Positions 12,746-35,084 of a stretch of 38,703 bases of DNA are shown in pieces (position 1 is the stretch's first letter; the number at the start of each line of letters is the position of its first letter). The position numbers and the translations under genes are program-made. The stretch comes from an uncultured Lachnospiraceae bacterium. Its GTDB lineage: Bacteria > Bacillota > Clostridia > Lachnospirales > Lachnospiraceae. Under the pieces are notes generated by a model. The model was not told the DNA's origin. It saw only the letters and a program-made list of their open reading frames with translations, and ran no database searches. Location of the stretch: NCBI GenBank assembly GCA_947169235.1, contig CAMVOY010000020.1, positions 1 to 38,703 of the forward strand, read 5' to 3'.

Positions 12746-14930
12746 ACCGTTATGTATCATTCTATGTTCTGTTATTCTGTGGATAATATGCTTTTACGAT
12801 CCACCCGATCCGAGTGATACGGGACCGGGAGATGGTGACCGGATCAGACTGATTGCAGCCGTTGAATCAATGGTTATAGCACCCGAAAAATATGAGCTTA
12901 CCGTATCGGATGTAGTGACGGAATCGGGTGAAAAATACTGCAACAGACTCAAGCTTTATTCTTCAAATAACAGTGAATCAAAATGGGAAGATAATTCACT
13001 TCCTGATCTGAAGATCGGAAATACGATCTTGTTTTCAGGGACTATCAAGTCCTTTCGCTTGCCCGGTAATCCGGGACAATTCAATGAGTTATCATATTAT
13101 CAGGCTATGGGTATCGATGCGAGATGCTTTGTTTCTGATATCCGGGTGATCGATGATGATCATGATAGTGTGGCAGATGCCTTGTATAAGTTGCGAGGTT
13201 TATTTCGTGATGCCTTTTATGGACTTTTGCCGGACAAAGAAGCCGGTATAGTAACGGCAATGGTGCTTGGTGAAAAACAGGGGCTTGATGAGGATGTAAA
13301 GGAGTTATATCGGGAGAACGGAATAGCTCATATACTTGCCATATCGGGACTGCATATTTCAATGATAGGAGTCGGGCTTTTTTGGCTACTTAGAAGGACG
13401 TTTTTATCACTGAAAGTTTCAGCTGTTATAACAGGTATGGTATTGTTTTTATATGGACAACTGACGGGATTTCCTATCGCAACCAAAAGAGCATTTATAA
13501 TGACATTAATAATGCTCATAGCGAAGATAATAGGAGAGCGTTTCGACAGATTAAATGCCTTGGCTGTAGCTGCTGTTATAGAGTTGGTATTTCATCCCGG
13601 ATCACTGTTTCAGAGCGGATTTTTGTTATCCTATGGAACAGTGCTGGGGATAAGTATTTTTGTATCAGAGTTTGAGAGGATAAGGATCAGTGATGAGAAG
13701 TCCATAAGGCAGGCTTTATTTAATGTTGTTTCAGGAAGTCTTGGAGTATCAATTATAACACTTCCGATCATAGTACAGAGCTATCATGAAGTACCTGTAT
13801 TTTCGGTCATAGTAAATACTATATTATTGCCGCTCATGACATTACTGTTGGGGATGTCGTTACTTGGTGGAGGGATGGCTATGATCTTTATGATCCCGGC
13901 GAGATTTATTTTCGGAGTTGTTTATTATATATTGCAGGGATATCAGATCGTGTGCGAAGTCGCAGGTTCATTGCCGGTAAATACGGTTGTTATCGGACAC
14001 AGAAGTACGATCGGCATAATCATATATTACGCGGTGGTTGTTATCATGTCGCGGAAGGATATAAGATTAAGTCCGGCTATAAAGCTGATAATACTTTGTT
14101 TAAATGTATTAATATTCCTGCTGCCTTACAGAAACACCGGCCTTTCGATAACAAATATCGATGTCGGTCAGGGAGACTGCGCCTGCATACGTTATGATGA
14201 CAAAGTAATACTTATCGATGGAGGATCGAGTGATGTTAAGGAAGTAGCCAAATACCGTATCGTGCCATTTTTGAAATACATGGGAATAGATACCGTCGAT
14301 TACATGGTGATCACTCATTCCGATGCCGATCATGTAAACGGATTCTCAGAGATCCTCAGTAAGGATGATCATTTCGGTATCGAAGTTAAAAACGTTGTTA
14401 TGCCTCTGATCACGGGGGAGGATAAGGCTTATGATGAGTTTGAAGAAAAGGCTGAAAGTGTAGTTAAGGACAGACTCGTAAAGATCAGTGCCGGAGATAA
14501 GATCAAAATATGTGATATGGAGCTCGTCTGCCTGCATCCTGCAAAAGGATATGCATGGGAGGATGCAAACGACTATTCGACAGTACTTAAGCTTAGGTTC
14601 GGGAACTTTACCGGCCTTTTTACCGGAGATCTGGGATTCCACGGAGAGGAGGCGATCCACGGCCTGCTCACGGATGTTGATTACCTGAAGGTCGGACATC
14701 ATGGTTCCAAAGGCTCGACGTCCGAAGCATTTTTGCAAAAGTTAAGGCCTGAGATCGCAGTGGCTTCGGCCGGGTATAAAAACAGGTACCATCATCCGGC
14801 CAAAGAGGCAGTGGAAAGACTTGATGACAGTGGTGCAAAGGTGTACTGTACGATTGATAGTGGAGCAGTGACCACATGGACTGACGGAGAGTGCATCAGA
14901 GTCAAAAAAAGCCTTGCAAATGGGCGCTGA
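12684..14930 (+). CDS. comEC: ComEC/Rec2 DNA-uptake channel
   Basis: Inner-membrane channel through which single-stranded DNA enters during transformation; 748 residues. Domain order: an N-terminal membrane segment, the OB-like DUF4131 region (about 50-180), the Competence domain with many membrane helices, beginning near AMVLGEKQGL and containing AISGLHISMIGVGLFWLL, and a C-terminal metallo-beta-lactamase domain from about residue 485. The latter keeps IDVGQGDC, the metal motif THSDADHVNG, FTGDLG and VGHHGS, suggesting an active nuclease. The ATG at 12684 lies 62 bases inside the GerMN gene with a weak GGAG upstream, so the start is less certain than the identity. The comEA gene lies upstream beyond three signalling-type genes, and holA downstream beyond two. 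Confidence 0.93.
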   Translation: MGKLKALTRPLKGILTSFGHRPLCIILCSVILWIICFYDPPDPSDTGPGDGDRIRLIAAVESMVIAPEKYELTVSDVVTESGEKYCNRLKLYSSNNSESKWEDNSLPDLKIGNTILFSGTIKSFRLPGNPGQFNELSYYQAMGIDARCFVSDIRVIDDDHDSVADALYKLRGLFRDAFYGLLPDKEAGIVTAMVLGEKQGLDEDVKELYRENGIAHILAISGLHISMIGVGLFWLLRRTFLSLKVSAVITGMVLFLYGQLTGFPIATKRAFIMTLIMLIAKIIGERFDRLNALAVAAVIELVFHPGSLFQSGFLLSYGTVLGISIFVSEFERIRISDEKSIRQALFNVVSGSLGVSIITLPIIVQSYHEVPVFSVIVNTILLPLMTLLLGMSLLGGGMAMIFMIPARFIFGVVYYILQGYQIVCEVAGSLPVNTVVIGHRSTIGIIIYYAVVVIMSRKDIRLSPAIKLIILCLNVLIFLLPYRNTGLSITNIDVGQGDCACIRYDDKVILIDGGSSDVKEVAKYRIVPFLKYMGIDTVDYMVITHSDADHVNGFSEILSKDDHFGIEVKNVVMPLITGEDKAYDEFEEKAESVVKDRLVKISAGDKIKICDMELVCLHPAKGYAWEDANDYSTVLKLRFGNFTGLFTGDLGFHGEEAIHGLLTDVDYLKVGHHGSKGSTSEAFLQKLRPEIAVASAGYKNRYHHPAKEAVERLDDSGAKVYCTIDSGAVTTWTDGECIRVKKSLANGR

Positions 14931-14942
14931 ATTCGGTATAAT
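14914..14942 (+). promoter_or_regulatory. Promoter for the hydrogenase-domain hybrid kinase
   Basis: TTGCAA (14914-14919) and a perfect TATAAT (14937-14942) are 17 bases apart. The -35 box lies inside the end of comEC, so the kinase gene can be transcribed separately from comEC. Confidence 0.8.
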
Positions 14943-14974
14943 TACTGTGTGCAAACGTATATTGAGGGATGATT

Positions 14975-17900
14975 ATGGCTGACAATCAGAAAAACATCGG
15001 TCTCAGCAGAGCCGCAAAGATAAAAAAGATACTGCTCTACGTTGGCGTAGGGTTATTTTTTGTGTTTGTCTCCGTTGTCTATTATTATATGCTTTACTCC
15101 AAGACCATGGCCGGTATAACCAAGACGGCGGAGCTTAATGCCACACAGTCTGCCGAGCAGATCAATACTCAGCTTTCAACACGTCTCAATCTGTTAATGC
15201 TCACTTCCTATACGCTTGACAATATGATCAAGGCGAAAGATCCAAATGAAAAAATACTTGATTATCTGACCAATCAGTCAGTATCAGTCAAGGATTCACT
15301 TATAGAGGATTCTACCGGTATTTACGGCTATATAAATGGCGAGTATATGGATGGATCGGGGTGGATTCCCGATGAAGGCTATGACGCCACGAAGAGACCG
15401 TGGTATACGGAGGGACGCAGTGGTAACGGAGAGATAGTCATAGTGGATCCTTATGTGGATCTGGATACCGGCAAGATGATGACCGCGCTTACTAAGACGC
15501 TTTGTGACGGTGAGAGTGTAGTCGGTATGGATATGTCCATGGATTCCATAGAGAGGATAACAGAGGAGCATGTAAGTCATCATCTGTCAAATGAAGAGTA
15601 TATAATCAATTCAAAAGGTGTCATAGTAGCGCATTCCGATACTCAGTTCATCGGTAAATACGAGGATGAGACTCAGGATACACTCGAAGAGAAAGTGTCT
15701 GATTTCAAAAAATCAAACTCGGACAGCGCTTTTGTTATTTCTCATGATGGAAAAGATTACATGATACATCTTGAGAGCCTGAACATGGATTGGACCTATG
15801 TTTCCGTCATCGATACGACGGATGATTTCAGGAACCTTCGTATTCCTTTGTATATAACGATCCTTGTTGCTATTATTACAGTCAGTTTACTGATCTTTTT
15901 CATGATACGTTCCGACAGAAAGTCGAGAGAGGCGCAGAGCCTCGTTGCCATGAGTGAGAAGGCCATGGCTGCAAGTGAGGCGAAGTCGTCATTTTTGTCT
16001 AACATGTCTCATGAGATCAGAACACCTATAAACGCCATCATCGGAATGAATGAGATGATCCTCCGAGAGTGTGAGGATAAATCGGTATTAAAGTATTCGG
16101 ATGATATAAAGACTGCGAGTAACACGCTTTTGGGCCTGATAAATGATATCCTCGATTTCTCAAAGATCGAGGCGGGAAAGATTGAGATCATACCTGTTGA
16201 TTACGATCTGTCATCAGTAATAAATGATCTTGTAAATATGATCGAAGCCCGTGTTGCTAAAAAGAACTTAAAGCTCACACTTGATTTCGATCCGAGCCTT
16301 CCGAAAAACCTTCATGGTGACGAGGTTCGTATCAAGCAGGTTATTACAAATATTCTTACAAATGCCGTCAAATACACTGAAGAAGGCGGTATCACCTTCA
16401 AGATCGGATTTGCGCAGAGGGTTTATGAAGAAGACGCCATAGATCTTTTTGTTGAAGTAAAGGACACCGGTATCGGAATAAAAAAAGAAGATCTTGAAAA
16501 GCTCTTTGCAAAGTTTGAGAGGATCGAGGAAAACCGAAACAGAAATATAGAGGGTACGGGCCTCGGCATGAATATTACCCAGCAGCTCTTAGAGATGATG
16601 GGTTCCGGACTGGAGGTTGACAGCGTATACGGCAAGGGCTCCACGTTCAGATTCTCCGTGCCGCAAAAGGTACAAAATTGGGAAGAACTCGGTGATTATA
16701 AAATAACATATGAGGAGCAGGTTAAGAAAAGAAAGAAATACAAGGAGAGTCTCAGGGCGCCGGATGCACGTATTCTTATCGTGGATGATAATCCGATGAA
16801 TATTGTCGTCATCCAGAATCTGATCAAGCGTACTGAGATTCAGATAGATACCGCTGAGAGCGGTGATGAAGCATTGCATTATCTTAACTTTACCAAGTAT
16901 GACATGGTATTTCTTGACCATATGATGCCCGGTAAAGACGGTATAGAAACACTGCATGCCCTAAAGGAGCAGAAGAATAACCCCAATATTGATTCCCCTA
17001 TAGTATGCCTGACTGCCAATGCAATAGAGGGAGCCAGAGAGAAGTATCTGGAGGAGGGCTTTGATGACTATCTTTCAAAACCTGTTGATCCGGATCTTTT
17101 GGAACAGACGCTGATAAAGTATCTGCCTGCGGAGCTGGTGACTATCATTGAGACTGAGGAGCCGGTAAATGACAGTGATGCGAATAAGGCGTCATCTGAT
17201 CATCCGGTGATGCCTGAGTTCGTTTCTGCAAAGGAGAGAGAAAAAGACGAGTTAACCCAAAAATACAAGAGGATAACCATTGATGATCTGAAGGGAAGAA
17301 GGATCGTCTATACAAATGATAACTGTATAGGTTGTAATAAATGTATAAATGTCTGCTCTGCGATCGGAGCTTCCGTTTCCGTAAATGTTGACGGTAAAGA
17401 AAGAATAGAAGTAGATGGTACCAAGTGTGTGGGCTGCGGAAGCTGTATCGATGTATGTGTGCATGGCGCCAGAGAGTTTGAGGATGATACGAAAAGATTT
17501 TTCGAAGATCTCAAAAAAGGCGAGAAAATATCATTACTTTTGGCTCCTTCGTTTAAGGCGAATTATCCGGATGAATATGAGAGCGTACTCGGCGCCCTGA
17601 AAAAGTTGGGTGTCAATCGCATCATAAGCGTATCATTCGGAGCGGATATCTGTACATGGGGATATCTGAATTATATTGAAAAATACAACTTCTCAGGAGG
17701 TATATCACAGCCGTGTCCGGCACTTGTTTCGTATATTGAGAAGTATATACCCGAGCTTCTGCCAAAGCTGTTTCCGGTACAGAGCCCTCTCATGTGCGCG
17801 GCGATATATGCGAGAAAAGAGATGGGTATTACTGATAAGTTTGCCTTTATCAGTCCGTGTATAGCCAAAAAGATTGAGATTGAAGACGAGCATAACAAGG

Positions 17901-19462
17901 ACCTCGTGCAGTACAACGTGACATTTGAACACCTGATGAGCTACGTGCATGAAAACGATATAAAAGGTGATCTGGAGCACAGCGAGATAGAGTACGGACT
18001 CGGATCATTCTATCCGGCGCCCGGTGGACTATCAGAAAACGTAAGATGGTTTTTGGGCGATCAGGTATATATACGGCAGATCGAAGGTGAAAAGAAGTTA
18101 TATGAGTGGCTTCATAAGAACGAAAGACGTATCAAAAATGACGAGACACCATTTTTGTTCATCGATGCCCTGAACTGCGAAAACGGATGTCTGTGCGGAA
18201 CAGCGGTGAACCCTGACAAGTCTGATACGGACGATGCGTTATATGCGCTTCTCGAGATAAAAGAACAATCCAAAAAGGATACTGAGGGTAGCGCATGGAG
18301 CAGACCTGATACTCCGAAGGAGCGTTTGGAAAGCTTCAACAAACAGTTTGAGAGTCTGAATCTCGATGATTATCTGAGAGGGTATACTGATAAGTCTGAG
18401 AATTGTAAATACAAAATACCTGATTCTGACGAGCTTGATGAGATTTACAATTATATGAATAAAACAACTCCGGAGTCCCGTCAGATTAACTGTACCTGTT
18501 GCGGATACGAGAGCTGTGAGCAGATGGCAACTGCGATATTTAATGGCTTTAATCACAGAGATAACTGTATCTACTATGAGAAGACCATGGTACAAGAGCT
18601 CGAGCTCGAGAACGCTTTTGTTGTAGAGGATGCAAGGACCAAAACGGAGTTCCTTGCCAATATGTCACATGAACTCCGTACTCCTATTAATGCAATGCTT
18701 GGAATGAATGAGATGATCATCAGAGAAAGCGCTGATGAGGGAGTTATCGGGTATTCCAAGAATATTCAGGAGGCCGGAGGCAAGCTCGTTAAGCTCGTTG
18801 ATAATATTCTTGATTTCTTCCAGAAGCAGGGAGTACAGATCTCTGATGAGGTTGATAGCGGAACATCAGAAAATGATCAGTTTGCCGCGCTCAGAGATCA
18901 GGATATGATCGATGTTGATGTGGGTATCCAAAACAGTGGAGGAGAAGACGGACTCATAGATCTGATGAAGATATTCTATGATTCGTATGAGAAAAACAGA
19001 TCCGTTATCAGTGGTTTCTATGATGATGCTGATTATGAAAACTATACAATCAAGGTACATGCACTGAAAAGCTCAGCAAGACTTATAGGAGCTACCGACT
19101 TCGGAGAGGATGCACAGTCTCTGGAAAACGCCGGAAAGAGCGGAGATATTGACTATATAAAAGAGCATCAGTCCGGTTTCATGAATGACTATAAAACGCT
19201 TAGAGACATAGTGGCAAGACTGTTTGAATCCAATGATGATGCCGGCGAAACAAATGCCGTTGAGACCGATCCTGAGATGCTTAAGGAACTTTATAATGAG
19301 CTCAGGAACGCTGCGGAGGCCATGGATTGTGACAGTATTGATTTCATGCTGGACGAGATGAGAGAATGTGTTGTTCCGGCTGATGAGAGGGAGAAGTTTA
19401 ATAAACTGATAAATGCCGCTTCAGACTATGATTATGAAGCTGTGTTGGAATTATTGTCATAA
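14975..19462 (+). CDS. Hybrid histidine kinase fused to an [FeFe]-hydrogenase-like H-cluster domain
   Basis: A 1495-residue membrane sensor. Order: TM1 (about 17-40), dCache sensor (KRPWYTEG, VDPYVD), TM2 (about 287-312), HisKA with H346, HATPase (NAVKYTEEGG, DTGIGI, GTGLGM), receiver with D648, two CxxCxxCxxxC [4Fe-4S] motifs at 784-795 and 818-829, a hydrogenase large-subunit domain with C914 (QPCPA), C962 (SPCIAKK), C1068 and C1072 (NCENGCLC), a further Fe-S motif (CTCCGYESC, 1173-1181), a second HisKA with H1232 but no ATPase, and an HPt with H1362. The four H-cluster cysteines are present; the first motif-1 cysteine, the usual proton relay, is proline. I infer H2 or redox sensing. The ATG at 14975 is 6 bases after GAGGG; the ATG at 14969 is too close. 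Its likely partner is the receiver protein 18 bases downstream. Confidence 0.9.
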   Translation: MADNQKNIGLSRAAKIKKILLYVGVGLFFVFVSVVYYYMLYSKTMAGITKTAELNATQSAEQINTQLSTRLNLLMLTSYTLDNMIKAKDPNEKILDYLTNQSVSVKDSLIEDSTGIYGYINGEYMDGSGWIPDEGYDATKRPWYTEGRSGNGEIVIVDPYVDLDTGKMMTALTKTLCDGESVVGMDMSMDSIERITEEHVSHHLSNEEYIINSKGVIVAHSDTQFIGKYEDETQDTLEEKVSDFKKSNSDSAFVISHDGKDYMIHLESLNMDWTYVSVIDTTDDFRNLRIPLYITILVAIITVSLLIFFMIRSDRKSREAQSLVAMSEKAMAASEAKSSFLSNMSHEIRTPINAIIGMNEMILRECEDKSVLKYSDDIKTASNTLLGLINDILDFSKIEAGKIEIIPVDYDLSSVINDLVNMIEARVAKKNLKLTLDFDPSLPKNLHGDEVRIKQVITNILTNAVKYTEEGGITFKIGFAQRVYEEDAIDLFVEVKDTGIGIKKEDLEKLFAKFERIEENRNRNIEGTGLGMNITQQLLEMMGSGLEVDSVYGKGSTFRFSVPQKVQNWEELGDYKITYEEQVKKRKKYKESLRAPDARILIVDDNPMNIVVIQNLIKRTEIQIDTAESGDEALHYLNFTKYDMVFLDHMMPGKDGIETLHALKEQKNNPNIDSPIVCLTANAIEGAREKYLEEGFDDYLSKPVDPDLLEQTLIKYLPAELVTIIETEEPVNDSDANKASSDHPVMPEFVSAKEREKDELTQKYKRITIDDLKGRRIVYTNDNCIGCNKCINVCSAIGASVSVNVDGKERIEVDGTKCVGCGSCIDVCVHGAREFEDDTKRFFEDLKKGEKISLLLAPSFKANYPDEYESVLGALKKLGVNRIISVSFGADICTWGYLNYIEKYNFSGGISQPCPALVSYIEKYIPELLPKLFPVQSPLMCAAIYARKEMGITDKFAFISPCIAKKIEIEDEHNKDLVQYNVTFEHLMSYVHENDIKGDLEHSEIEYGLGSFYPAPGGLSENVRWFLGDQVYIRQIEGEKKLYEWLHKNERRIKNDETPFLFIDALNCENGCLCGTAVNPDKSDTDDALYALLEIKEQSKKDTEGSAWSRPDTPKERLESFNKQFESLNLDDYLRGYTDKSENCKYKIPDSDELDEIYNYMNKTTPESRQINCTCCGYESCEQMATAIFNGFNHRDNCIYYEKTMVQELELENAFVVEDARTKTEFLANMSHELRTPINAMLGMNEMIIRESADEGVIGYSKNIQEAGGKLVKLVDNILDFFQKQGVQISDEVDSGTSENDQFAALRDQDMIDVDVGIQNSGGEDGLIDLMKIFYDSYEKNRSVISGFYDDADYENYTIKVHALKSSARLIGATDFGEDAQSLENAGKSGDIDYIKEHQSGFMNDYKTLRDIVARLFESNDDAGETNAVETDPEMLKELYNELRNAAEAMDCDSIDFMLDEMRECVVPADEREKFNKLINAASDYDYEAVLELLS

Positions 19463-19480
19463 AAAAGGGAGGACATGATT

Positions 19481-20284
19481 ATGGTAAATGATGAAAAAAG
19501 GATCTGCCTCATCAAGTATCAGGAGAGTGTTATCATCAGAGGCATTGAAAAAAAACTTAAGGAGATGAAGTTCGATGTCTGTGCTTTTGAATCAGATCAG
19601 TACGATGAGATAAAACGTGAGTACAAAAACTCTGATTTGTTTATCGCATATCTGCCGGGAGACACCGCAGACAATGACTCGGGATTCTTTAAGGGTTTTG
19701 GAAAGCTTCTTTCTGATGTCAGCTCGGTTGATAAAAAGGTTATCGTGATCGGTGATGAGGATGACAGACATATGATCTCCGAGAACGTTCCCGGTATGTG
19801 GACTCATATATGGGTCAGCCGTCCTCTTGATATCAAGGTTCTTATGCGTGAGATAAAGGATCAGCTTTCGGATGATGAGGATGAATTAACTGATAAGCAT
19901 ATCCTGATCGTTGATGATGATCCGTCATATGCAAAGATAGTCAGAGGTTGGCTGAAGGATGATTACAGGGTTGATATCGTTACAGCCGGTATGCAGGCCA
20001 TAACATTTTTATCAAGAAAAATGGTTGATCTGATCCTTCTTGACTATGAGATGCCTGTCACTGACGGTCCGCAGGTGCTCGAGATGCTCAGACAGGAGCC
20101 TTCGATGGCTGATATACCTGTTATCTTTTTGACGGGCGTTGATTCTAAGGAAGCGGTGTCAAGAGCAGCTCATCTGAGACCGGACGGGTATATTCTTAAG
20201 TCTACATCAAAAGGGGATCTGATGATGTACTTAAAGAAAGTATTTAAAAAATACAGCGATAAAAATGATTATATGGAGATGTAA
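19481..20284 (+). CDS. Two-receiver response regulator without output domain
   Basis: A 267-residue cytosolic protein. The N-terminal half (about 1-120, starting NDEKRICLIKYQ) has a receiver-like pattern but no acidic pocket or clear phosphoacceptor, so it looks like a pseudo-receiver. The C-terminal half (about 138-260) is a normal receiver: LIVDDDPS, phosphoacceptor D188 in ILLDYEMP, the threonine in FLTG and a lysine in ILKS. No DNA-binding or enzymatic domain follows, so it probably relays phosphate from the kinase just upstream. The ATG at 19481 is 8 bases after GGGAGG; the ATG at 19475 is too close. Its stop codon shares one base with the holA start (TAATG), so the two are translationally coupled. 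Confidence 0.85.
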   Translation: MVNDEKRICLIKYQESVIIRGIEKKLKEMKFDVCAFESDQYDEIKREYKNSDLFIAYLPGDTADNDSGFFKGFGKLLSDVSSVDKKVIVIGDEDDRHMISENVPGMWTHIWVSRPLDIKVLMREIKDQLSDDEDELTDKHILIVDDDPSYAKIVRGWLKDDYRVDIVTAGMQAITFLSRKMVDLILLDYEMPVTDGPQVLEMLRQEPSMADIPVIFLTGVDSKEAVSRAAHLRPDGYILKSTSKGDLMMYLKKVFKKYSDKNDYMEM

Positions 20285-32405: not shown

Positions 32406-35084
32406 ATGAACCTGATCAAAAAGTCACGAGAATACTTAAATAATCCTAAATACGATTTGAATGAACGTACCTTTGCGCTTCTTTCCGCAATCGGGCTTTT
32501 TGGATTGTTTCTTGCCATACTTGGCGGGTTTATCACCGGAGAGGCATTCTGGTCAATGGTATTGGCAGTGAGTTGTTTTGTCGTGTTTATTATCATGATC
32601 ATATTGGCGTTTAGGTTTCATAAGGTCAAAGTTATATCTGCAATAGTTGCATTTATTCTATCGGTGATCTTTATACCCTTAAACTTTTTCACGAGCGGAG
32701 CCATACATGGCGGAGCGGTATGCTGGAATATATTTGTTTCGGTTTACATCGGTATGATGCTCAGTGGAAAGATCAGGGTTTTCTTTTTGACGCTTGAGGC
32801 AATCTCAGTTGTTGCAACTTATTATGTTTATTACTGTTATCCCGAGCTTGCTACTGACCGAGGTGCATATACGGAATTCTCGGATTCTATCGTGTCATTT
32901 TTCCTGGTGAGTTTCATCATAGTTTTTATGACGGCTTTTCAGTCCGGCCTGCTTATCAGAGAGAATGAAAGGACCAAAAAGCAGAAGGATGAGATTGATG
33001 ACCTGAACCGTGCGCAGAACTCATTTTTCTCAAGTATGAGTCATGAGATACGTACTCCCATCAATACTATCGCCGGTCTTAATGAGATGATACTTCGTGA
33101 AAATGCATCAGATGAGATCAATGAGGATGCGATCAATATTCGTTCCGCAAGTCAGCTTCTCCTGCATTTGATCAATGATATTCTTGACATGTCAAAAATG
33201 CAGTCCGGACAGATGAAGCTTACCGAAAGCAATTATTACTGTGCTGATATGATCTCCGATGTGACGAGCATGATACATACCAGGGCCAACGAAAAAGGTC
33301 TTGAGTTTAATGTCGATGTTGCTCCGGGACTGCCTGAAGAGCTATGGGGAGATGATGTGAGGATCAGACAGATACTGATAAATGTCCTGAACAATGCAGT
33401 TAAGTATACACTTGAGGGCAGCGTGTCTCTTTCTGTTAGTGCCGAACGCGATTTGGAAAAACAGGTAAGGGTGATCTTTACAGTATCAGATACCGGTATT
33501 GGTATTCGCAAGGAAAATATACCGTTTTTGTTTGATGTATTTAAAAGGGTCGATGAGCAGAAAAATGCGAGGGTAGAGGGAACAGGTCTTGGTCTGTCTA
33601 TCGTAAAGCAGTTAGTCGATCTGATGGGTGGAAAGATATCTGTAAACAGCGTATATACAAAGGGTTCTACCTTTGTGATCGAGATACCGCAAAAGATTGT
33701 TGGAGACGGTGTCATAGGAGAGATAGACTTTTTCAAAAACAAGAGAACAAATGAATTAAAGGAATACAGTGCAAGTTTTGTTGCACCGGATGCGAATATC
33801 CTTGTGGTAGATGACACATCTGCAAATCTGATGGTCGTCTCAAAGCTTTTGCGTGAAACAAAGGTCAAAGTGACAACAGTGTTATCCGCGGAGGAGGCGC
33901 TGTCAAAGACTCTTGAGAATCACTATCATGTTATCTTTATGGATCACCTGATGCCTGATATGGACGGTATCGAATGCCTGAAGAGGATCAGGAACCAGAC
34001 CGGAGGAATGTGCAGAGAATCAAAGGTTGTTGCACTGACGGCAAATGCAGGTTCAGACAGATCAAGATTATATATGAGAGAGGGATTTGACTCATATCTG
34101 GTCAAGCCGGTGAGAGGCATAGATCTTGAGAACGAGCTTATAAAGCTTTTGCCGAGTGATCTTGTTACCATAGCAGATGAAAAGACCGACATAGAGAACA
34201 ATGCGAGCCTGTGGAGAGATGTTCATAAGAACAGGGCATCAGTGATCATCACAACAGACAGCGTTGCTTCTTTGCCGCAGAGTGTCCTGGATAAGTTCGG
34301 TATCAGGGTTATCCCCATAAGGGTGCAGACTCAGGACGGAGTTTTCCGTGATGGTATTGATATAGATTCGGAAGGCCTCATAAAGTTCATGACTGAAGAG
34401 GAAAAGAGAGTCATTATCAGGCCGATATCCGTTGATAGGTTTGAGTCGTTTTTTGCTTCATGTTTAAAGGATGCGAGAAATGTAATCTATATCTCCGGAT
34501 CCGGAGCAGTCAACAGATCGAGTTATCCGAATGCTGTTGAGGCTTCAAAAACTTTTGATAACGTACATGTTGTTAACAGCGGTCATCTGGCAGGTGCACT
34601 CGGTGCGATGTGTATGCTGGCGGCAAAGGCTGCTGCTGAGGGCGCAGAGACTGAAGAGATACTGGGTATGATTGACCGGATAAGACTTAATGTAAAAGCG
34701 GAATACATACTTCAGAATCTCGACTATCTGACCGAGGCAGGACAGATAGGAAGATTTTTTGCAAAGATAGTCAGGGCGTTCTCACTCCATCCGGTTGTAT
34801 ATGTGAATAATACAAAGATGAAGATGTATCGCGCATATATGGGTGGCACCAAGCGAGCATGGGCAAAGTATATAAAGAGAATACTTAAAAACGGTGTCGT
34901 TGCTGAAGATCAGGTCGCTGTATTTGGTACCGATTTAAAACGTCAGGACAGGGAATACATTACTGAGCAGATACAAAAACATGTAAAGTTTAAATCGGTT
35001 CAGTTTTTCAATGCCTCATCAGTTATGGCGTTTAACTGCGGACCGGGATCGTTTGGAATCGTAACTATTAAAAAACAAAAATAA
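32406..35084 (+). CDS. Membrane hybrid histidine kinase fused to a C-terminal DegV domain
   Basis: An 892-residue protein. About six membrane segments fill residues 20-185, followed by a short coiled region. HisKA has H213 in SMSHEIRTPINT; HATPase shows NVLNNAVKYT, DTGIGIRKE and GTGLGLSI. The receiver (about 463-590) has VVDDTSAN and D513 in IFMDHLMPDMDG. From about residue 612 to the end lies a full-length DegV domain: IITTDSVASLPQSVLDKFGI, then a YISGSGAVNRSS stretch, VVNSGHLAG, LQNLDYLTEAGQIGRF and HPVVYVNNTKM, in the order of the stand-alone DegV at 23962. There is no HPt. DegV proteins bind fatty acids, so a lipid-responsive kinase is a reasonable inference; direction of signalling is unknown. 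AAGGAG precedes the ATG. Confidence 0.92.
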   Translation: MNLIKKSREYLNNPKYDLNERTFALLSAIGLFGLFLAILGGFITGEAFWSMVLAVSCFVVFIIMIILAFRFHKVKVISAIVAFILSVIFIPLNFFTSGAIHGGAVCWNIFVSVYIGMMLSGKIRVFFLTLEAISVVATYYVYYCYPELATDRGAYTEFSDSIVSFFLVSFIIVFMTAFQSGLLIRENERTKKQKDEIDDLNRAQNSFFSSMSHEIRTPINTIAGLNEMILRENASDEINEDAINIRSASQLLLHLINDILDMSKMQSGQMKLTESNYYCADMISDVTSMIHTRANEKGLEFNVDVAPGLPEELWGDDVRIRQILINVLNNAVKYTLEGSVSLSVSAERDLEKQVRVIFTVSDTGIGIRKENIPFLFDVFKRVDEQKNARVEGTGLGLSIVKQLVDLMGGKISVNSVYTKGSTFVIEIPQKIVGDGVIGEIDFFKNKRTNELKEYSASFVAPDANILVVDDTSANLMVVSKLLRETKVKVTTVLSAEEALSKTLENHYHVIFMDHLMPDMDGIECLKRIRNQTGGMCRESKVVALTANAGSDRSRLYMREGFDSYLVKPVRGIDLENELIKLLPSDLVTIADEKTDIENNASLWRDVHKNRASVIITTDSVASLPQSVLDKFGIRVIPIRVQTQDGVFRDGIDIDSEGLIKFMTEEEKRVIIRPISVDRFESFFASCLKDARNVIYISGSGAVNRSSYPNAVEASKTFDNVHVVNSGHLAGALGAMCMLAAKAAAEGAETEEILGMIDRIRLNVKAEYILQNLDYLTEAGQIGRFFAKIVRAFSLHPVVYVNNTKMKMYRAYMGGTKRAWAKYIKRILKNGVVAEDQVAVFGTDLKRQDREYITEQIQKHVKFKSVQFFNASSVMAFNCGPGSFGIVTIKKQK

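Follow-up and report, generated by a model that had tools for sequence, protein, structure and literature searches.

Can a single polypeptide read a ligand outside the cell and the hydrogen or redox state within it, and pass both signals into one phosphorelay? This question is raised by a hybrid kinase encoded in a 38,703-nucleotide stretch of DNA from an uncultured Lachnospiraceae bacterium (GenBank assembly GCA_947169235.1, contig CAMVOY010000020.1, positions 1 to 38,703 of the forward strand), referred to here as the window. The kinase carries an [FeFe]-hydrogenase-like module inside its chain. We propose a membrane-anchored phosphorelay receptor with two inputs, derived from a fused gene pair and acting by the mechanism described below, and we give this proposal as a whole a probability of about 0.55. 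Support is good for the fusion and for the logic of the domains. Genomes and loci are cited by our own G and L numbers, G000 being the genome of the window.

Architecture of the window kinase

The kinase gene is one open frame on the forward strand, encoding 1497 amino acids (aa). Position 14975 is the second in-frame ATG, and a GAGGG just 5' suits this position slightly better than 14969, as judged by eye. The features of the gene are as follows, with the basis of each assignment in brackets (TM, transmembrane segment; ORF, open reading frame).

14969..19462, forward strand: whole gene for the hybrid kinase, 1497 aa (ORF and Pfam; the start may be 14975)
15023..15910, forward strand: TM1, aa 19–42; dCache, aa 43–291; TM2, aa 292–314 (profile match; TMs by eye)
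15380..15544, forward strand: dCache_1AA-type motif, Y138, R143, W145, Y146, Y162 and D188 or D192 (motif of PMC11237719)
15980..16177, forward strand: HisKA1, aa 338–403, phosphoacceptor H348 (Pfam, alignment)
16316..16666, forward strand: HATPase_c, aa 450–566, the sole ATPase domain found (Pfam)
16772..17110, forward strand: receiver, aa 602–714, acceptor D650 (Pfam Response_reg, alignment)
17297..17518, forward strand: F-domain with two [4Fe-4S] motifs, C786, C789, C792, C796 and C820, C823, C826, C830 (Pfam, alignment)
17519..18448, forward strand: H-domain, ligands C916, C964, C1070, C1074, pocket residues P915, S962, L1068 (Pfam, alignment, model)
18449..18595, forward strand: C-terminal Fe-S domain, Cx2Cx4Cx16C, C1175, C1178, C1183, C1200 (Pfam, alignment)
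18596..18823, forward strand: HisKA2, aa 1210–1285, phosphoacceptor H1234, no HATPase behind (Pfam, tree, model)
18899..19198, forward strand: HPt, aa 1311–1410, phosphoacceptor H1364 (Pfam, alignment, model)
19199..19462, forward strand: helical C-terminal tail, aa 1411–1497, and stop (model)

A preliminary description of this DNA had placed all of these domains in a single frame, and domain search, a dCache profile and a model of the HPt region recover each of them. Pfam assigned HisKA to two stretches (best 338–403), a Fer4-type match to 785–834, Fe_hyd_lg_C to 858–1077 (E 5.9e-28) and FeS (PF04060) to 1172–1202, an order that agrees with a module embedded between the receiver and a second phosphoacceptor domain, as had been claimed. 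Hpt at 1332–1395 scored 22.0 bits, under the cut-off of 24.6, and this region is helical with high confidence in the AlphaFold2 model. The H-box, ATPase, receiver Asp and HPt His of a hybrid-kinase phosphorelay are all present. The second HisKA stands as a dimerisation and histidine phosphotransfer (DHp), or phosphoacceptor, domain but has no ATPase of its own; because the Pfam scan of the window protein found no HATPase after HisKA2, a complete second kinase was ruled out.

The full order of dCache, kinase, receiver, module, HisKA and HPt occurs in three of the 117 related genomes, G000, G011 and G002, where a carrier is defined by a module match in an ORF of more than 1300 aa and contig-edge copies, such as that of G016, can be judged only in part. 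It is absent from all 80 loci examined in a GTDB scan; these are the best 80 of 356 confirmed stretches, and a near relative may fall outside them. An assembly chimera was rejected on the like architecture, frame and synteny in three genomes; an artefact is unlikely because G011 and G002 share the architecture and gene order and the ratios of nonsynonymous to synonymous substitution (dN/dS) of the domains are well below 1. The domains are under purifying selection. Between G000 and G011, dN/dS is 0.065 for dCache with its TMs, 0.012 for HisKA1, 0.035 for HATPase, 0.040 for the receiver, 0.014 for the F-domain, 0.047 for the H-domain, 0.050 for the C-terminal Fe-S domain, 0.029 for HisKA2, 0.067 for HPt, 0.086 for the tail, and 0.21 and 0.43 for the linkers, all of them rough values, since dS is high for this pair and reaches saturation in many of the G002 comparisons. 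The SHELRTP box of HisKA2 is complete in all three species.

The AlphaFold2 model of aa 768–1497 has a mean predicted local distance difference test score of 90.2 and a predicted template modelling score of 0.66. In this model, one unbroken helix (1201–1253) extends from the C-terminal Fe-S domain through the first helix of HisKA2, and a low-confidence linker at about 1290–1301 is followed by the HPt helices. All of the 50 matches listed by Foldseek are [FeFe] hydrogenases (8a6t, E 5.7e-16).

Pfam named no dCache in the N-terminal 315 aa of the window protein. Seven sequences, the window and six relatives, gave a profile that matched solved dCache chemoreceptors (best E 2.2e-16; PctA, 3.1e-11). 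A motif for dCache_1AA amino-acid sensors has been published (PMC11237719), and window residues 138–192 satisfy it with strict spacing, to D192. Among 594 ORFs of at least 300 aa in the fetched loci, five carry the strict motif: those of the window, its G011 copy and three ORFs of 660–671 aa. The outside-ligand input named in the preliminary description is supported by profile and motif and can be narrowed to a dCache that is probably an amino-acid-type sensor. It shares with PctA and the dCache_1AA sensors the fold, as judged by profile, and the motif residues; it differs in that its ligand is predicted from the motif and that strict spacing holds in part of the family only.

The hydrogenase-type module and its relatives

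We compared 125 modules, the window included, taken as those rows that span 300 or more positions of the profile, after exclusion of catalytic, PAS-type and group D-like rows. All four H-cluster Cys ligands are kept in 125 of 125. In CpI numbering, which follows the papers and the motifs, the C299 position is Pro in 119 (P915 in the window), the M353 position Ser in 113 (S962), the M497 position Leu in 121 (L1068) and the K358 position Lys in 123. Pro915 occupies the place of the proton-relay Cys of catalytic enzymes. All 16 Fe-S and H-cluster Cys are kept in 15 modules (window included; 36–89% identity to the window) and, together with the K358 equivalent, are invariant in 50 of 50 sequences of a wider alignment. 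Under labels given by length and motif, distinct from the HydDB classification (Pfam, run on one of each, found PAS in the PAS-type L195 and none in the group D-like L205), seven group D-like sequences have Ala (six) or Val (one) at C299, Ser (five) or Thr (two) at M353 and Leu (six) or Asn (one) at M497, and 12 PAS-type sequences have Cys, Gly and Asn/Ser/His at the three pocket positions.

The phylogeny of the H-domain region, suggested earlier as a check, places the window module outside the catalytic rows and on the sensory side. The tree held 101 rows, with those of methyl-accepting chemotaxis proteins (MCPs) thinned to 27 of 81, 11 chosen catalytic rows, and the named TamHydS outside the sample. 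A branch with 97 support in the Shimodaira–Hasegawa-like approximate likelihood ratio test separates the 11 catalytic rows from 90 sensory-type rows, among them the window. The module clade (71 rows) has a support of 100, the group D-like clade (7 rows) 100 and the PAS type (12 rows) 99; the tree does not fix the order in which these three branched, and the program cautions about long branches that meet. The window module does not cluster with the group D-like rows, which form a clade of their own. Pocket residues and tree rule out a plain catalytic hydrogenase. The Cys ligands, three Fe-S motifs, changed C299, M353 and M497 positions and non-catalytic tree position are those of sensory [FeFe] hydrogenases.

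HydDB already recognises sensory [FeFe] hydrogenases with links to kinases, chemoreceptors or phosphatases, as its groups C1–C3 (PMC5037454). Since about 10% of HydDB sensory sequences have Pro at the C299 position (PMC10055695), the Pro-type module is probably already within HydDB group C. It has in common with C1 (kinase-linked) and C2 (chemotactic) a sensory H-domain coupled to a kinase or MCP as output (PMC5037454), and the kinase linkage of C1 is present in the window by fusion. In the C1 case of Vallitalea, hydrogenase and kinase are separate genes of one locus (PMC6163223), whereas the window has the module in one chain with an extracellular sensor and an ATPase-less DHp domain. TamHydS of Thermoanaerobacter mathranii, group D (M2e), resembles the window module in its two N-terminal [4Fe-4S] motifs, H-domain, Cx2Cx4Cx16C motif, lack of PAS and pocket changes M353 to Ser and M497 to Leu; with these matching Ser and Leu changes it binds and turns over the H-cluster (PMC8163306). 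It differs in that six of the seven group D-like relatives, a separate clade, have Ala and not Pro at C299, and in that no fused output is reported in the available part of its description, whereas the window has one. TmHydS, group C (M2f), has the same order of F-domain, H-domain and C-terminal Fe-S domain (PMC8163306) and a PAS domain after the Fe-S site; Pfam found no PAS there in the window protein, which runs straight into the DHp helix.

How is the module used elsewhere? Among 136 module-bearing ORF rows from the fetched loci, where overlapping loci repeat some genes, 93 join the module to an MCP, 2 to an MCP and receiver and 14 to a kinase with HATPase; 2 stop in HisKA at a contig edge, 6 are of the window type (three genes), and in 19, roughly half of them fragments, the scan found nothing beyond the module. 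Pfam on six of the 19 found GGDEF-EAL in L076, GGDEF in L107, L112 and L114, and HD_5 in L108 and L136. Further loci gave GGDEF-EAL (L186, L189), GGDEF (L211), PAS-kinase-receiver (L210) and MCP (L163, L212) partners. Domain composition marks the module as a plug-in sensor of this bacterial order, with chemotaxis, kinase, GGDEF, GGDEF-EAL and HD outputs, the last three being cyclic-di-GMP-type enzymes. The earlier statement that sensory hydrogenases are often separate proteins is corrected in that direct fusions are common in this order. The modules of L075, L085 and L102 grouped by tree with the GGDEF-EAL protein L076, and on that ground these three are probable GGDEF-EAL fusions.

Gene-pair origin and genomic setting

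The window protein is best read as a fusion of a neighbouring gene pair, because Lachnospiraceae bacterium AD3010 has both halves as overlapping genes and because of the tree positions of dCache, HisKA2 and module. In AD3010 (L289:3738–9691, reverse strand), a 937-aa dCache-kinase-receiver-HPt gene overlaps a 1047-aa module-kinase-receiver-HPt gene by 4 nucleotides. The window dCache groups with that of AD3010 (support 98/98), a 94/96 split places HisKA2 and two module-less kinases on the side of the module kinases, and the window module lies inside the module-kinase clade. Both sensors are thus common to the two systems; AD3010 has two complete hybrid kinases, whereas the window has a single chain in which ATPase, receiver and HPt each occur once. 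At the proposed junction, fusion would have removed the HPt of the first gene along with the ATPase and receiver of the second. In strain XBB2008 (L288:8068–10725, reverse strand), an 885-aa module-HisKA-receiver-HPt protein without HATPase sits in a run of hybrid-kinase genes and adjoins a homologue of the 269-aa regulator that follows the window kinase:

19475..20284, forward strand: probable cognate response regulator, 269 aa, receiver at aa 143–252 (adjoins the kinase in 3/3 carriers)

From this position, the 269-aa receiver protein is the probable cognate regulator of the kinase. In G009, a dCache kinase is followed by a homologue of this regulator. The kinase and regulator genes lie between comEC and holA in all three carriers. 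Of seven other genomes read at this place, four (G016, G012, G007 and G005) have comEC and holA adjoining; in G010 the two are separated by an unrelated ORF on the opposite strand, in G003 by a 177-aa ORF, and on the G027 contig holA is present and comEC was not seen. The two other carriers have holA genes 94% and 88% identical to that of the window; elsewhere the identity is at most 66%. A promoter for the kinase gene itself was rejected as a candidate, the single promoter-like site (14914–14942) standing against 0.8 expected by chance.

Elsewhere in the window, positions 32406–35084 (forward strand) encode an 892-aa HisKA-HATPase-receiver protein with a C-terminal DegV-family domain (PF02645, E 3.9e-40), directly behind another hybrid kinase. 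Hybrid kinases are many in the G000 genome, in which a first look for the kinase half gave 73 candidates, 15 of them scored.

Proposed relay and alternatives

In the proposed mechanism, dCache would set the activity of HisKA1 and HATPase on binding a ligand, probably an amino acid, from outside the cell. Phosphate would pass from H348 to D650, then to H1364 and on to the 269-aa receiver. The internal module would read H2 or the redox state of its own Fe-S/H-cluster set and act via the helix that leads from the C-terminal Fe-S domain into HisKA2. The HisKA2 bundle would gate or feed the receiver-to-HPt step, not act as a second kinase, and the output would combine an outside nutrient signal with the internal H2 or redox state. 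Both the gating by HisKA2 and the sensing of H2 are what we infer from sequence and model. The window genome encodes HydE (504 bits), HydG (908 bits), HydF (477 bits, joined) and a group B hydrogenase (TIGR04105, 599 bits). The H2 or redox sensor suggested at the outset gains from these genes, from the conserved ligands and from the sensory-side tree, and loses from module carriers that have no HydG. In the available literature the sensory role of [FeFe] hydrogenases is termed putative, with no measured output.

Several observations weigh against the two-input proposal. Strict motif spacing holds in four of seven dCache kinase homologues, and looser spacing in all seven. The window HPt groups with a G009 module kinase at 76/83 only, the best-scoring HPt outside the three carriers belongs to a kinase of another architecture (G040 L274b), the window receiver groups with an XBB2008 kinase (85/86), and resolution is weak in the trees of HATPase, receiver and HPt. 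With module-bearing set at 240 bits or more, by eye, and HydG at E up to 1e-60 (G109 being below the curated cut-off), HydG occurs outside the genus of the window in 4 of 18 module-bearing and 34 of 60 module-less genomes (Fisher p 0.015, uncorrected for kinship); the module may therefore function without a full H-cluster in some lineages, and the absence of HydG from some carriers speaks against a universal H-cluster requirement. G110 (96% complete) has a module as its sole Fe_hyd_lg_C protein and lacks both HydG and HydF. G120 has three modules, one of them near that of the window, no catalytic type and no HydG, with HydF not searched there.

These genomes, with modules and neither catalytic hydrogenase nor HydG, favour a [4Fe-4S]-only redox or ferredoxin sensor, whose cubane and accessory clusters, without a 2Fe subsite, would report electron pressure and not H2. 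So, more generally, do carriers without HydG, 14 of 18 outside the genus and 3 of the 12 genomes to which named loci led (G118, which is XBB2008, G123 and G120), and the Pro that replaces the proton-relay Cys in 119 of 125 modules. However, all 125 modules keep the 2Fe-bridging Cys (C1074) and 123 keep the K358 equivalent, neither of which a cubane-only site would obviously need. In the genus of the window, moreover, 29 of 30 module-bearing genomes have HydG, though so do 7 of 9 module-less ones (p 0.13), and the sole exception, G032, has HydF. Absence of HydG is itself not diagnostic, because 12 of 16 HydG-negative genomes hold TSCCP hydrogenases. These 16 come from 21 closely examined genomes, picked since most are without HydG, in which HydG was above cut-off in 5 and HydF in 7; the other four of the 16 have TNCCP (G077), TSCSP (G090 and G091) or none (G110), and G118 and G123 each have a TSCCP hydrogenase despite no HydG. 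HydG co-occurrence was accordingly dropped as proof or disproof of an H-cluster. We regard the cubane-only sensor as unlikely. As a separate observation, eight genomes of 90–100% completeness (G060, G069, G084, G089, G098, G102, G104 and G113) have a TSCCP hydrogenase and no HydG or HydF match, for which alternative maturation, loss or a search gap are candidate causes. Hydrogenase-like proteins of 575–613 aa in L144, L145, L152 and L173 have TSCSP for TSCCP, placing Ser at an expected cubane-ligand Cys.

The role of HisKA2 allows two further readings. It could be a true second phosphoacceptor, served by the single HATPase within the dimer, in which case H2 or redox state would pick the histidine and provide two parallel entries to receiver and HPt. 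Retention of the entire SHELRTP box in 3/3 species suits this idea, but the ATPase ends about 640 residues ahead of HisKA2 with the module in between. We consider this reading about as unlikely as the cubane-only sensor. Improbable, in our estimate, is that module and HisKA2 are passengers of the fusion, HisKA2 being a leftover dimerisation helix and dCache the sole control of the relay. A HisKA2 without ATPase and on a long stem branch (0.99; 0.71 in a second tree) is what a passenger might look like, but dN/dS of module and HisKA2 is as low as that of the kinase core while the linkers drift, the H-box is identical in 3/3 species, and XBB2008 also has an ATPase-less module-HisKA protein. Beyond the two-input receptor proposed here, we offer only tentatively a wider version, in which the chain would be a coincidence detector, with an amino-acid sensor, an H-cluster H2 sensor, one ATPase and an ATPase-less DHp domain as H2-driven gate, and the Pro-type module would be a general plug-in for chemotaxis, phosphorelay and cyclic-di-GMP across Lachnospiraceae and kin.

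As a kinase-linked sensory [FeFe] hydrogenase, the protein is of a known kind; what is new is the two-input arrangement of known families. A search of open-licence papers, mostly titles and the starts of abstracts and with EAL and HD fusions not searched, recognised no such architecture. With the module fused to its own kinase, the question of H2 sensing is directly testable, and AD3010 and XBB2008 offer separate-gene versions. If the proposal is true, fermenters of this family would have a single receptor that merges nutrient information from outside with the H2 or redox state inside, and this would bear on the tuning of H2 production. A gut-type anaerobe might in this way weigh food and hydrogen or redox state jointly.

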